In this document: one piece after another, positions 49,538 through 53,686 of the stretch
Position numbering within the stretch: the stretch's first letter is position 1
Layout: each line of letters starts with the position of its first letter
Assembly (NCBI RefSeq): GCF_030816965.1
Contig: NZ_JAUSYQ010000002.1
Span: forward strand, 3,939,001-4,003,000
From: Streptomyces canus
GTDB taxonomy: Bacteria > Actinomycetota > Actinomycetes > Streptomycetales > Streptomycetaceae
DNA: 64,000 nucleotides
Direction of reading: 5' to 3'
Program-made: the position numbers and the translations under genes
The notes under the pieces: generated by a model
Told to the model about the DNA's origin: nothing
The model's input: only the letters and a program-made list of their open reading frames with translations
The model's database searches: none

Positions 49538-50953
49538 CTACGCCGTCGCCCCGGCGGCCTTCGCCGCGTCCCGCACCGCACCCGCGACCGCACCCGCGAC
49601 CTTGTCGTTGAAGACGCTCGGGATGATGTAGTTCGGGTTCAGCTCGTCCTCGGTCACGACGTCCGCGAGGGCCTTCGCGGCCGCGAGCATCATCTCCGTG
49701 TTGACCGTGCGGGACTGGGCGTCCAGCAGACCGCGGAAGACACCCGGGAAGACCAGCACGTTGTTGATCTGGTTCGGGAAGTCGGAGCGTCCGGTGGCCA
49801 CGACGGCCGCCGTCTGACGGGCGACCGCCGGGTCGACCTCGGGGTCGGGGTTCGCGAGCGCGAACACAATCGCACCCTCGGCCATGGCGGCGACGTCGGC
49901 GCCGTCCAGGACGTTCGGGGCGGAGACGCCGATGAAGACGTCAGCGCCGCGCACGGCCTCCTTCAACGTCCCGGTCAGGGCCTCGGGGTTGGTGTTGTCG
50001 GCGATCCAGCGCAGCGCCGAGCCCGGAGCGGCGTCGACGAGGTCCTCACGGCCGGCGTGCACCACGCCGTGGATGTCGGCGACGACGGCGTTCTTCACGC
50101 CCGCCGCGATCAGCAGCTTGAGGATGGCGGTACCGGCCGCGCCGGCACCGGACATGACCACCCGGATGTTCTCAATTGCCTTGCCGGTGACGCGAAGTGC
50201 GTTCGTCAGGGCGGCGAGGACCACGATCGCGGTGCCGTGCTGGTCGTCGTGGAAGACGGGGATGTCGAGGGCCTCACGCAGCCGGGCCTCGATCTCGAAG
50301 CAGCGCGGCGCGGAGATGTCCTCGAGGTTGATGCCGGCGAACCCGGGGGCGATCGCCTTGACGATCTCGACGATCGCGTCGGTGTCCTGGGTGTCCAGGC
50401 ACAGCGGCCAGGCGTCGATGCCGGCGAACCGCTTGAAGAGGGCCGCCTTGCCCTCCATGACCGGGAGGGCGGCCTTGGGACCGATGTTGCCCAGACCCAG
50501 CACGGCCGAGCCGTCCGTCACGACCGCAACGGAGTTGCGCTTGATGGTGAGCCGGCGGGCGTCCTCGGGGTTCTCGGCGATCGCCATGCAGACGCGCGCC
50601 ACACCCGGCGTGTAGATCATCGAGAGGTCGTCACGGTTGCGGATGGGGTGCTTGGACTGCATCTCGATCTTGCCGCCGAGGTGCATGAGGAACGTACGGT
50701 CGGAGACCTTGCCGAGGGTGACGCCCTCGATGCCGCGCAGCTGCTGGACGATCTCGTCGGCGTGCGCCGTGGAGCTCGCGGCGATGGTGACGTCCATCCG
50801 GAGCTTCTCGTGGCCTGAGGCGGTCACGTCGAGGCCGGTCACCGAGCCTCCGTGGGACTCTACGGCCGTGGTGATCTGGGAGACCGCGGTGCCGCCCGCC
50901 GGCACCTCCAGCCGGACCGTAATCGAGTAGGAGACGCTGGGCGCCGTTGCCAT
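49538..50953 (-). CDS. NAD-dependent malic enzyme with N-terminal ACT-like domain
   Basis: A 471-aa enzyme decarboxylating malate to pyruvate. Residues 1-85 form an ACT-like regulatory domain (YSITVRLEVPAGGTAVSQIT). The malic core includes MIYTPGVARVCMAIAENPED, VVTDGSAVLGLGNIGPKAAL, ISAPRCFEIEARLREALDIP and metal site VFHDDQHGTAIV; the Rossmann motif is VMSGAGAAGTAILKLL. In S. coelicolor the homologue (SCO2951 by recollection) is NAD-dependent and supports growth on gluconeogenic carbon and lipid synthesis. A structured RNA with terminator lies 107 bases upstream of its ATG. Confidence 0.94.
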   Translation of the reverse strand: MATAPSVSYSITVRLEVPAGGTAVSQITTAVESHGGSVTGLDVTASGHEKLRMDVTIAASSTAHADEIVQQLRGIEGVTLGKVSDRTFLMHLGGKIEMQSKHPIRNRDDLSMIYTPGVARVCMAIAENPEDARRLTIKRNSVAVVTDGSAVLGLGNIGPKAALPVMEGKAALFKRFAGIDAWPLCLDTQDTDAIVEIVKAIAPGFAGINLEDISAPRCFEIEARLREALDIPVFHDDQHGTAIVVLAALTNALRVTGKAIENIRVVMSGAGAAGTAILKLLIAAGVKNAVVADIHGVVHAGREDLVDAAPGSALRWIADNTNPEALTGTLKEAVRGADVFIGVSAPNVLDGADVAAMAEGAIVFALANPDPEVDPAVARQTAAVVATGRSDFPNQINNVLVFPGVFRGLLDAQSRTVNTEMMLAAAKALADVVTEDELNPNYIIPSVFNDKVAGAVAGAVRDAAKAAGATA

Positions 50954-51059
50954 GGCCGACTTCCTCTGCTTTCACCTGTGACGCTGATGCCGTCCGATGG
51001 TCGCACCTACTGATGAGTAGGCGTTAGCCACACCGGATTGCGGACTTTTTGTTCATGAC

Positions 51060-51096
51060 GAGAGAGGCCCACGTCACATGGACGTGGGCCTCTCTC
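51060..51096 (-). terminator. Perfect 16-bp terminator of the structured RNA
   Basis: Arms 51060-51075 and 51081-51096 are fully complementary around a 5-nt loop. Read on the minus strand the terminator lies 107 bases before the malic enzyme start and right after the multi-hairpin RNA. Confidence 0.9.
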
Positions 51097-51192
51097 AGGT
51101 CAATGACACCGACCCGCCATGCTCGCCTCGCGGCAAGTGGTCGCTCGTAGCGACGAAGGTTGGGCCCGGGGGCTTGGATCGGGCCGGTGTCA
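51060..51192 (-). ncRNA. Highly structured small RNA or riboswitch-like leader upstream of the malic enzyme
   Basis: On the minus strand TAGCCT (51203-51198) is a plausible -10, placing the 5' end near 51192. From there an 8-bp closing helix TGACACCG (5' arm 51192-51185) pairs with 51111-51104. Inside are a GGCCCG/CGGGCC hairpin (51185-51163), a TCGCT-ACG-AGCGA hairpin (51153-51141) and a 6-bp stem capped by a GCGA tetraloop (51137-51122). After it comes a perfect 16-bp terminator stem (51096-51081 with 51075-51060). I recall a small RNA reported in the SCO2951-SCO2952 interval of S. coelicolor, to be verified. It could be a free sRNA or an attenuator. Confidence 0.65.
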
Positions 51193-51255
51193 CGTCCAGG
51201 CTAACAAACGGATCCCGAAACTCCCTCCCGTCGCCCGACCACCGCCCCTCAACGA

Positions 51256-51270
51256 CGGCGCTTCGCGCCG
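51256..51270 (-). terminator. Short hairpin after the HelD-like gene
   Basis: CGGCGC-TTC-GCGCCG just downstream of the HelD-like stop. It may contribute to 3'-end formation and separates that gene from the RNA promoter. Confidence 0.45.
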
Positions 51271-51295
51271 ACACCTCCCGATTCGTACCGAGAGT

Positions 51296-53686
51296 TCAAT
51301 CTCTCAGCAGATCGGGCACCCCGTCCCGGTCCGGCTGGTCGCGCTCCGCCGAGACGACCGTCAGCTGCTGGGTGGCCCGGGTGAGGGCGACGTAGAGCAC
51401 CCGCAGTCCGGCCGGGGACTCGTCGGCGATCTCGGCCGGGGAGACGACGACCGTCGCGTCGTACTCCAGGCCCTTGGCCTCCAGACTGCCGAGCGCCACC
51501 ACCCGGTCGCCGAGCCCGGTGAGCCAGCGGGCGGCTTCTTCCCGGCGGTTCATGGCGACGACGACGCCCACCGTCCCGTCGACGAGGTCGAGGAGGCGGG
51601 CCGCCTCCTCTCGGACGCTCTCTCCCAGCGACCTCCGTGCGACCGTGCCGCGTCCGTGGTTCGTTGTCACGAAACGCGGTTGGACGCCGGTGGACCGTAC
51701 GGCCGAGGGTGCCGTGGAGCCGGGCATGGCGAGGGCCAGCACCTTGGCCGCGAGGTCGGCGATCTCGGAGGGGTTGCGGTAGTTCACGGTGAGCTGGAAG
51801 CGGCGGCGGGGACGCGTACCGAGGGCCTCGTCGCGGGCCTCGGCGGCCTCGTCGGGGTCGGACCAGGAGGACTGCGCCGGGTCTCCCACGACCGTCCAGG
51901 TGGCGTGCCGGCCGCGGCGGCCGACCATGCGCCACTGCATCGGCGTGAGGTCCTGGGCCTCGTCGACGATGACGTGGGCGTACTCGACGCGTTCCTGGGC
52001 GAGCCGCTCGGCCCGCTCGCGCTGCGACTCCTCGCGGACCGGCATCAGCTCCTCGAGCCCGGTGAGGTGGTCGAGCGGGTCCAGTTCGCGCCTCTTCTTC
52101 GGGCGGGCCGGGGTGCCGAGGACCGCCTGGAGCTCGTCGAGCATGGCGATGTCGTGCACGGAGAGGCCGTCACGTCTGAGTGAGCGGGCGACCCTGCGGA
52201 CCTCGCCGGGATTGAGGATGCGGCGGGCCCAGCGGCCGAGGCGCCGCTCGTCGGCCATGGCGGCGAGGACGGCCTTCGGGGTGAGCTCCGGCCACCAGGC
52301 GTCGAGGAACTCGATGAAGCTGTCCTCGGAGGTGATGTCCTCGTCGAACGACGACCGGAGCTCGGCCGCCAGTTCGGGATCGGTGTGCCGGGGGCCCGCC
52401 CCGGACCGCGCCCACAGGGCGTCCAGGAGCAGCTTGCGGGCCCGGGGCCGCAGCAGGTTGACGGGCGCGGTACCGCTGAGGGCGTTCCGGCGGATGTTTT
52501 CCAGCTCGTCCGCCTCCAGTTCGAGCCGGCGCCCGAAGGCGACGACGCGGAGACGGGTGGAGGGTGCGGTGGAGGATGTGGTGGACGGCTCCTCCTCGCC
52601 GAAGGCGAGCTGCCCGGAACCGCTCCCCCCGCTGTGGCTCCCCAGCTCCAGCGCCCCCCGCGCCGCCTTCCGCAGCACCTTCAGCATCCGGTACGACCCC
52701 TTGGCGCGGGCCACCGCCGGGGAGTCGTACAGGGTGGCCTCGACGCCGTCGACCAGGGAGCCGATCGCGCGGATGGCGACCTGGCCCTCCTCACCGAGCG
52801 ACGGCAGGACACCCTCGGTGTACGCCACGAGCAGCGGGGTGGGCGAGACGATGAGGATGCCGCCGGCGTAGCGGCGCCGGTCCTGGTAGAGCAGATACGC
52901 GGCCCGGTGCAGGGCCACGGCTGTCTTGCCGGTGCCGGGGCCGCCCTCGACGTAGGTCACGGACGCGGCGGGGGCGCGGATGACCAGGTCCTGCTCGGCC
53001 TGGATGGAGGCGACGATGTCCCGCATGGTGTGACTGCGGGCCTGTCCCAGCGCGGCCATCAGGGCGCCGTCGCCGATGACGGCCAGCTCGTGGCCGCCGA
53101 GGAACGCCTTGAGCTCGGGGCGCATCAGGTCGTCCTCGACACCGAGGACCTTGCGGCCCTTGGAGCGGATCACCCGGCGTCGTACGACACGCCCGGGATC
53201 CACTGGAGTGGACCTGTAGAAGGGGGCGGCGGCCGGCGCCCGCCAGTCGATGACCAGCGGCGCGTACTCGGAGTCCAGGACTCCGATCCGGCCGATGTGC
53301 AGGGTCTCCGCGATGTCCGCGGTGCCGTCCTCCCGGACAGCGCCTTCGGCGGGCTCCACGGCGGTGTAGGCGCCGTCGGGCCCCTTCTTGCCGTCCTTGC
53401 CGAGGAGCAGGTCGATCCGGCCGAACAGGAAGTCCTCGAACTCGTTGTTGAGCCGGTTGAGGTGCACACCGGCCCGGAAAACCTGGGCGTCCCGCTCGGC
53501 GAGAGCGCCCGGTGTGCCGACCTGGCCGCGCTTGGCCGCGTCGTGCATGAGGAACTCCGCCTCGTGGATCTTCTCCTCGAGGCGCCGGTAGACCCGGTCC
53601 AGATGTTCCTGTTCGACGCCGATCTCGTGGTCCCGAACCGAGTCCTGAACCGAGCCGACCGCGGATTGTTGAGCCTGAGCGGCCAC
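51296..53686 (-). CDS. HelD-like UvrD-superfamily ATPase (RNA polymerase recycling factor type)
   Basis: A 796-aa superfamily 1 ATPase. The N-terminus has a helical hairpin (VEQEHLDRVYRRLEEKIHEA), the kind that enters the RNA polymerase secondary channel in HelD. Walker A is GGPGTGKTAVALHRAAYLLY, Walker B VIVDEAQDLTPMQWRMVGRR, with motifs TVVGDPAQSSW, LTVNYRNPSEIADLA and YVALTRATQQLTVVSAERDQ. HelD proteins release stalled RNA polymerase, and relatives (HelR) protect it from rifamycins. The GTG at 53686 follows GAAGGGGG. I could not find a convincing rifamycin-associated element upstream. It ends 200 bases before the structured RNA terminator. Confidence 0.88.
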   Translation of the reverse strand: MAAQAQQSAVGSVQDSVRDHEIGVEQEHLDRVYRRLEEKIHEAEFLMHDAAKRGQVGTPGALAERDAQVFRAGVHLNRLNNEFEDFLFGRIDLLLGKDGKKGPDGAYTAVEPAEGAVREDGTADIAETLHIGRIGVLDSEYAPLVIDWRAPAAAPFYRSTPVDPGRVVRRRVIRSKGRKVLGVEDDLMRPELKAFLGGHELAVIGDGALMAALGQARSHTMRDIVASIQAEQDLVIRAPAASVTYVEGGPGTGKTAVALHRAAYLLYQDRRRYAGGILIVSPTPLLVAYTEGVLPSLGEEGQVAIRAIGSLVDGVEATLYDSPAVARAKGSYRMLKVLRKAARGALELGSHSGGSGSGQLAFGEEEPSTTSSTAPSTRLRVVAFGRRLELEADELENIRRNALSGTAPVNLLRPRARKLLLDALWARSGAGPRHTDPELAAELRSSFDEDITSEDSFIEFLDAWWPELTPKAVLAAMADERRLGRWARRILNPGEVRRVARSLRRDGLSVHDIAMLDELQAVLGTPARPKKRRELDPLDHLTGLEELMPVREESQRERAERLAQERVEYAHVIVDEAQDLTPMQWRMVGRRGRHATWTVVGDPAQSSWSDPDEAAEARDEALGTRPRRRFQLTVNYRNPSEIADLAAKVLALAMPGSTAPSAVRSTGVQPRFVTTNHGRGTVARRSLGESVREEAARLLDLVDGTVGVVVAMNRREEAARWLTGLGDRVVALGSLEAKGLEYDATVVVSPAEIADESPAGLRVLYVALTRATQQLTVVSAERDQPDRDGVPDLLRD

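Follow-up and report, generated by a model that had tools for sequence, protein, structure and literature searches.

The window analysed here, i.e., the whole stretch of 64,000 nucleotides from Streptomyces canus (assembly GCF_030816965.1, contig NZ_JAUSYQ010000002.1, positions 3,939,001 to 4,003,000), holds a structured RNA element between a malic enzyme gene (mae) and a gene for a HelD/HelR-like protein (helD), all three on the minus strand. The features of this interval, in positions of the window, are:

49538–50953, minus strand: malic enzyme gene mae (PF00390, PF03949), which we take to correspond to the position of SCO2951
50990–51054, minus strand: conserved block just 5′ of mae (70 loci)
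51060–51096, minus strand: terminator-like stem-loop of 16 bp, without a U-run
51102–51194, minus strand: RNA core of 93 nt, closed by helix P1; the window copy belongs to class I
51103–51116, minus strand: 3′ arm of P1
51122–51137, minus strand: hairpin P4, with a GNRA-type GCGA tetraloop at 51131–51128
51140–51154, minus strand: hairpin P3 (GUCGCU-ACG-AGCGAC), with two-sided changes at two pairs
51158–51173, minus strand: C-rich conserved segment GCCCCCGGGCCCAACC, which includes the poorly supported hairpin P2
51180–51193, minus strand: 5′ arm of P1, 14 nt, pairing with 51103–51116
51198–51205, minus strand: promoter −10 region GTTAGCCT, comprising the sigma-A-type TAGCCT (TANNNT) and the GTT half of an ECF-type promoter
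51221–51283, minus strand: 63 nt that correspond to 9 nt with GGAAT in the near relative L003
51296–53686, minus strand: gene for a HelD/HelR-like RNA polymerase recycling ATPase, position of SCO2952 (NCBIfam matches below cut-offs)

The original prediction described a multi-helix RNA with a perfect terminator upstream of the malic enzyme gene, and considered it to be either a small RNA (sRNA) or a new riboswitch class. Its 8-bp closing helix, in which TGACACCG (51192–51185) pairs with CGGTGTCA (51111–51104), is found when the minus strand is read back, and in fact extends to 14 bp (51193–51180 with 51116–51103) plus an inner CCA/TGG. The GCGA tetraloop, the −10-like TAGCCT at the right distance (51203–51198), the 16-bp terminator stem and the 107 nt between the end of this stem and the ATG of mae (50953) were read back in the same way. 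RNA folding of positions 51200–51050 gave −85.9 kcal/mol compared to a mean of −55.66 (sd 4.26) for shuffled sequences (z −7.1), with none of 200 shuffles equally good, and the folded RNA upstream of mae is confirmed to be real. The terminator stem has its arms at 51096–51081 and 51075–51060 around the loop CATGT. A U-run is missing, and with a simple scan of 50900–51320 no terminator and no sigma-70-type promoter were reported. Of 117 Streptomycetaceae loci (counted unmerged, six of them repeating a place), 114 have a terminator-like stem 3′ of the core that reaches 10 bp or more, compared to a shuffled mean of 6.7 bp; the sequence of this stem varies, with 93 distinct arms among the 117 loci.

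A DNA search detected the element in 245 of the 246 genomes of the genus, the window's own genome counted. The 70 genus loci that were studied closely contain 56 distinct cores, which align without gaps over 93 columns at a mean column identity of 96%; 74 of these columns are invariant, in helices and loops alike. The covariance search across Streptomyces relatives that had been suggested as a check was performed with a model (R1) built from these 56 cores, so from Streptomyces only, which provides an independent count: it matched 199 of the 200 genomes from the family and, at the class level, 190 of 394, including 40 from the window's genus. A second model (R2), from a class-wide alignment of 30 sequences, matched 244 of the 394 class genomes (again 40 from the genus), some of them by construction because 26 of the sequences in the model were taken from class genomes other than those of the genus, and at the phylum level it matched 22 of 296 genomes, all 22 in the window's class. 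Both the genus and the class genomes are evenly drawn samples of those in existence. Among the matches listed are Brevibacterium, Cellulomonas, Arthrobacter, Nocardia, Mycobacterium, Microbacterium, Rothia, Kocuria, Gordonia, Rhodococcus, Nocardioides, and Geodermatophilus, and two loci (L147 and L231) carry tandem copies of the RNA. At least 80 named loci were collected by means of a search pattern in which P3 and P4 are largely fixed and Streptomyces is left out; the conservation of these two hairpins, not that of P1, is therefore partly by construction in these 80 loci. Over 124 sequences the CCCC..GG of the C-rich segment is nearly invariant and the loop of P4 reads GNGA, P3 and P4 having been part of the search pattern for 80 of them.

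At gathering cut-offs, no family of Rfam 15 matches the RNA in the window or in 20 distant loci. The best sub-threshold match in the window region was Thr_leader (29.4 bits vs. a cut-off of 55), and the distant locus L134 gave nothing at E values up to 5. The scan of the 20 distant loci (out of the 39 then fetched) returned one tRNA and one ASdes match, both outside the RNA, and on this basis tRNA false positives were rejected as the source of the class-wide matches. An RNA family spread across much of the actinomycetes, with no match in Rfam 15 at gathering, is newly found here.

Compensatory changes across the class support the fold. In a MAFFT alignment of the 30 class-wide sequences, RNAalifold predicted P1, P3, and P4 unaided, and 15 of its 21 pairs show two-sided changes. 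On the larger alignment A5 (124 sequences; none of the covariation alignments was fitted to a structure), two-sided changes occur at 22 of 32 pairs, compared to a shuffled mean of 17.5 and with 1 of 500 shuffles as high; they involve 438 cells, compared to 157 for shuffles and no more than 98 for slid controls, and 86.8% of the cells are paired vs. 77.2% in shuffles. All 14 pairs of P1 show such changes on A5, the four outer ones being unpaired in 42–49 sequences each, of which misalignment is perhaps part of the cause. A comparison of 118 RNAs without any alignment gave a P1 run that averages 12.3 bp with the RNAs' own arms and 7.3 bp with swapped arms. Within the genus alone, two-sided changes were observed at 2 pairs, a number reached by 236 of 500 shuffles, and the case for covariation stands, therefore, on the class-wide sets. 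Covarying pairs, the lack of which in homologues was to count against the proposed structure, were found on both of these (15 of 21 and 22 of 32), and the RNA thus has the conserved and covarying folded core that is typical of riboswitches. Three internal hairpins had been described; P3 and P4 have compensatory changes class-wide and stand, but P2, of 3 bp, is unsupported by A5 (62.8% of its cells paired) and was rejected.

The changes in P3 also bear on a quite different reading of the core, namely as a leaderless small coding gene of 32 codons that starts at the GTG at 51193 and is conserved as a protein. Its frame is open to a TGA in the window, and the GTG, which adjoins the expected start, is kept in 43 of the 56 distinct cores. 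It is, however, missing in the other 13, three cores (L037, L058, and L065) have an in-frame stop, and the two-sided changes in P3 preserve the pairing but change codons. Neither start nor frame is, therefore, kept in all relatives, and the reading frame was rejected on its in-frame stops and the pair-keeping changes; the chance that a conserved protein is encoded here is very small.

The position of the RNA relative to mae is more variable than the window suggests. After merging, the 117 Streptomycetaceae loci represent 111 places, 110 of which have mae in reach (L082 is the one without). The RNA shares the strand of mae in 97 of these 110 places and has the reverse orientation in the remaining 13. 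Without exception, the inverted copies sit between mae and helD, are directed away from mae and towards helD, and retain GGAAT-N18/19-GTT in front of them. The core is 96–97% identical to that of the window in L040 and L053, the first inverted cases found. In L061 a cold-shock-domain gene (1237–1446 of that locus, plus strand; PF00313, E 2.2e-29) sits between RNA and mae, on the strand opposite to both. Outside the family, tblastn with mae and HelD of the window found nothing in 119 RNA-bearing loci. The distant set comprises 120 copies, after removal of two weak reverse-strand echoes (L183 and L201) and one copy at a contig end (L177) from an initial 123; with genes called by a GC3 heuristic, 50 of them have a downstream neighbour in the same orientation, 65 have one in the opposite orientation and 5 have none in reach, and the upstream neighbour is on the same strand in 79 of the 118 that have one in reach.

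These data allow the riboswitch idea to be judged. A metabolite-binding riboswitch that controls mae in cis through its terminator would account for the window itself, where a closed junction and a terminator are followed after 107 nt by mae in the same orientation, and for the same-strand order in 97 of 110 places. An element in the 5′ leader of mae should, however, keep its order and strand, and this one does not: its orientation is reversed in 13 of 110 places, the cold-shock gene intervenes in L061, and 119 loci outside the family have no mae beside it. The RNA is, therefore, not a switch of mae. The distant copies, with a same-strand downstream neighbour in only 50 of 115, argue in the same direction, and the control of malic enzyme by a metabolite-binding RNA, as put forward in the original prediction, has to be considered highly improbable. 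As judged from gene order, the RNA is a separate gene and not the leader of mae. It is the sRNA half of the earlier alternative that endures, since promoter and terminator-like elements of its own move along with the RNA, and its place and name fit a known sRNA (see below).

The block upstream of mae (51054–50990) is conserved on its own in 70 loci, the inverted and separated cases included, and is a probable control region of mae itself, i.e., a promoter or operator. An upstream region that serves mae independently of the RNA, which was named beforehand as evidence against a riboswitch, is suggested but not proved by the retention of this block where the RNA is inverted or separated. The block contains an inverted-repeat-like CTAC...GTAG.

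The genes that adjoin the distant copies are diverse. L134 has a PhoU_div/PHO4 pair (Pfam) as neighbours, with similar genes in 5 of 39 distant loci by clustering; other neighbours are, by sequence reading alone, presumably alpha-ketoglutarate dehydrogenase, carboxyltransferase, and WhiB-like genes. In 15 of the 39 distant loci (L122, L123, L124, L125, L128, L129, L134, L135, L136, L142, L144, L152, L153, L155, and L157), the RNA is accompanied by a gene for a protein of ca. 200 amino acids, which in 13 cases lies immediately upstream in the same orientation; five members were scanned, with no match in Pfam and, for three of them, none in NCBIfam.

The ECF-type promoter motif GGAAT-N18/19-GTT precedes the RNA in 102 of the 111 distinct Streptomycetaceae places. 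In Streptomyces, GGAAT occurs upstream of a GTT that adjoins the core in 62 of 70 loci (as GGGAAT in 58 of the 62), with a spacer of 18 in 16 loci and 19 in 46. With a looser motif, 0.25 loci would be expected from shuffles. Two whole genomes contain GGGAAT-N18/19-GTT at 43 and 41 sites (7 each for the reversed control); one of the 41, in a relative with 10.7 Mb (G140), is directly before the RNA. The consensus of SigR reads GGAAT-N18-19-GTT (PMC9205884), and it is also written GGAATN18GTT (PMC2375139). Of the distant copies, 47 of 120 have GGAA[TC]-N16-19-GTT (0.19 expected from shuffles, which overstate the odds because related sequences are not independent events), including Microbacterium (7/7), Nocardia (8/13), Mycolicibacterium (2/3), Rhodococcus (2/2), Mycobacterium (2/2), and Nocardioides (2/2). 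The motif is absent from the copies in Rothia (0/4), Arthrobacter (0/3), Curtobacterium (0/3), and Cellulomonas (0/2). Since 73 of the 120 distant copies are without the motif and 67 of the 120 have a sigma-A-like TANNNT, control by an ECF sigma factor is not universal.

In Streptomyces, the sigma-A-like and ECF-type −10 elements overlap (GTTAGCCT). The upstream GGAAT-N18/19-GTT by which members of the SigR/SigH (ECF) regulon are recognized, present in 102 of 111 places, is not found for the copy in the window, where the place of the −35 box reads GGGAGG (51229–51224); the GGAAT box is also missing in 8 other places of the 111. As 63 nt (51283–51221) occupy the place of the 9 nt with GGAAT in L003, the window copy retains only the sigma-A-like half. 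The promoter motifs are relevant to another explanation, i.e., that the core is derived from a 3′-UTR and represents the processed 3′ end or terminator of helD mRNA, without a promoter of its own. The same-strand helD upstream in the window and the same-strand upstream neighbours of 79 of 118 distant copies would agree with this, but the promoter motifs are located directly before the core, and in the 13 places where the RNA is inverted relative to helD it runs towards this gene with the motif kept. We consider a helD-derived RNA, therefore, to be very unlikely.

The interval has a known sRNA. According to PMC8388888, Vockenhuber et al. (2011) confirmed that scr2952 is expressed in S. coelicolor, and over half of the Streptomyces tested have it conserved. 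By the convention stated in PMC3765725, scr names follow the right-flanking gene. If this rule, which is assumed to be valid for the names of 2011, is applied, and since the gap on the other side of helD is 63 nt only (helD taken at its longest), scr2952 is placed in the interval of the RNA, between the homologues of SCO2951 and SCO2952. By name and gene order, the element in the window is very probably the homologue of scr2952; an sRNA from this interval of S. coelicolor is also mentioned in the original prediction. scr2952 has been reported as a Streptomyces sRNA; the class-wide spread, the covariation, the ECF-type promoter, the inversions and the longer relatives come from the present work. 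It is stated to be in Rfam (PMC8388888), yet no family of Rfam 15 matches the RNA at gathering, and it is not among the S. ambofaciens homologues, based on Rfam, listed in the examined passages of that paper. Likewise, the examined part of the Rfam-based table for S. lividans in PMC8079986 has no 2952 entry, scr2952 is unnamed in the main text of the RNA-seq paper on three species of 2013 (PMC3765725), and the available text of the RNA polymerase RIP-seq paper (PMC11077062) contains no word starting with scr29. SCO2951 is absent from the main texts of PMC10771440, PMC2375139, PMC9205884, PMC4921905, and PMC4895711. Among the titles and abstract openings listed in our searches, there was no description of the function of this RNA or of a wider family.

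R2 also finds two relatives of 115 nt in the genome of the window, which represent a longer form (class II):

C2:9506420–9506534 of the window's own genome, minus strand: class II copy (L280:1501–1615, minus strand)
C2:267922–268036 of the window's own genome, plus strand: class II copy (L281)

Class II shares the CCCCGGGCCTCACC strand and the CGCCGAGAGGCG hairpin with class I and has a longer middle hairpin. A DNA search found it in 75 of 121 genus genomes, with at least seven scored matches in some; as at most seven candidates per genome were scored, these copy numbers are lower bounds. It occurs on chromosome arms, and 51 plasmid records contain it, too. Neither class gave a match among 50,697 phage records, and an origin from phages was rejected. 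All 21 distinct class II places examined (22 rows with one place twice, consisting of best-scoring matches and one further copy, L281) have GGAAC-N18-GTT; most sigma-E sites have a GGAAC-like −35 and an 18-bp spacer, according to PMC10771440. At one plasmid copy, a sigma factor gene and a hypothetical gene are located 0.9–2.2 kb upstream (L304:1822–3107). Four Rhodococcus plasmids have partial class I matches that cover 43–62% of the query; the two examined (L305:4001–4060 and L306:4001–4043) lie in an unannotated gap.

Our preferred reading, held with moderate confidence, is that the element is an independent, stress-inducible, trans-acting structured sRNA gene and not a leader of mae, the stress induction and the action in trans being the parts that we infer. 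Its transcript would probably be ca. 130 nt long, starting near 51193–51190 and ending at its own stem-loop at 51060, with a core in which a long closing helix surrounds a junction with the C-rich strand and two hairpins, one of them GNRA-capped. Because an ECF-type (SigR/SigH-like) promoter is present in most Streptomycetaceae and in many other actinomycetes, with a sigma-A-like −10 elsewhere, the RNA is most likely made, or made in larger amounts, under thiol-oxidative, heat or envelope stress. It would then act in trans as a stable structured RNA. In its architecture, it can be likened to the ECF-sigma-dependent sRNAs of other bacteria, which are likewise small structured RNAs with an ECF-type promoter and their own terminator; these are of the RybB/MicA type and require Hfq. 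The 6C RNA and Ms1/scr3559 are conserved actinobacterial sRNAs too, and the 6C RNA also has C-rich loops (PMC8388888), but neither 6C nor Ms1 matches the RNA at gathering in Rfam 15; in a lax search of 50900–51320, Ms1 scored 12.7 bits vs. a cut-off of 162 and 6C was not listed at E values up to 10.

Our best guess for the acting part would be the conserved C-rich strand together with the GNRA hairpin. Since both are kept class-wide, they point to one conserved partner, either an RNA or a protein, and the candidates are translation starts that are rich in G, or a protein of the machinery for translation or transcription. A long antisense target of the C-rich segment was rejected: complementary sites are not in excess over the reversed control in four genomes (28 vs. 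31 in G000, 23 vs. 27 in G140, 21 vs. 23 in G118, and 25 vs. 29 in G024, the RNA gene itself contributing one site per genome), and any antisense seed would, therefore, have to be short. The SigR regulon includes tmRNA and ribosome-associated proteins (PMC4921905), which would make a role in translation stress a reasonable guess.

A possible but less probable explanation is an RNA that binds or sequesters a protein such as RNA polymerase, the ribosome or an RNA chaperone, with the core as a docking platform and without a base-paired mRNA target. The invariance of 74 of 93 columns in helices as well as loops (56 genus sequences), the retention of the GNRA loop and the C-rich strand across the class, the lack of an excess of long complementary sites and the HelD-like neighbour in Streptomycetaceae, an RNA polymerase protein, are all in line with it. 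However, the examined passages of PMC11077062 name Ms1/scr3559 and scr0792, and not the present RNA, as bound to the transcription machinery in S. coelicolor, and helD is not the neighbour in 119 loci outside the family.

Beyond the preferred reading of an independent sRNA gene, a broader picture can be offered as speculation. The RNA may belong to an ancient, actinomycete-wide family that forms the RNA arm of the SigR/SigH/SigE stress regulons, in which class I would be the single, nearly invariant chromosomal copy (in Streptomyces) and class II the longer, multi-copy form of plasmids and chromosome arms, transcribed from GGAAC-N18-GTT, and both would use the C-rich strand and the GNRA hairpin on one common target in the translation or transcription machinery. 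We put this forward tentatively, as it is rather doubtful that all of it will hold.

The locus illustrates that a closed junction and a terminator before a metabolic gene can mislead, and that relatives with an inverted order decide such a case. For an RNA without a function in the papers searched, our results suggest thiol or envelope stress as a trigger that can be tested, and scr2952 of S. coelicolor as a model. One RNA can now be traced from Streptomyces through Nocardia, Rhodococcus, Mycobacterium, Microbacterium, Arthrobacter, and Nocardioides, with a core that has changed little and the same kind of stress promoter in many of these lineages, if not in all.
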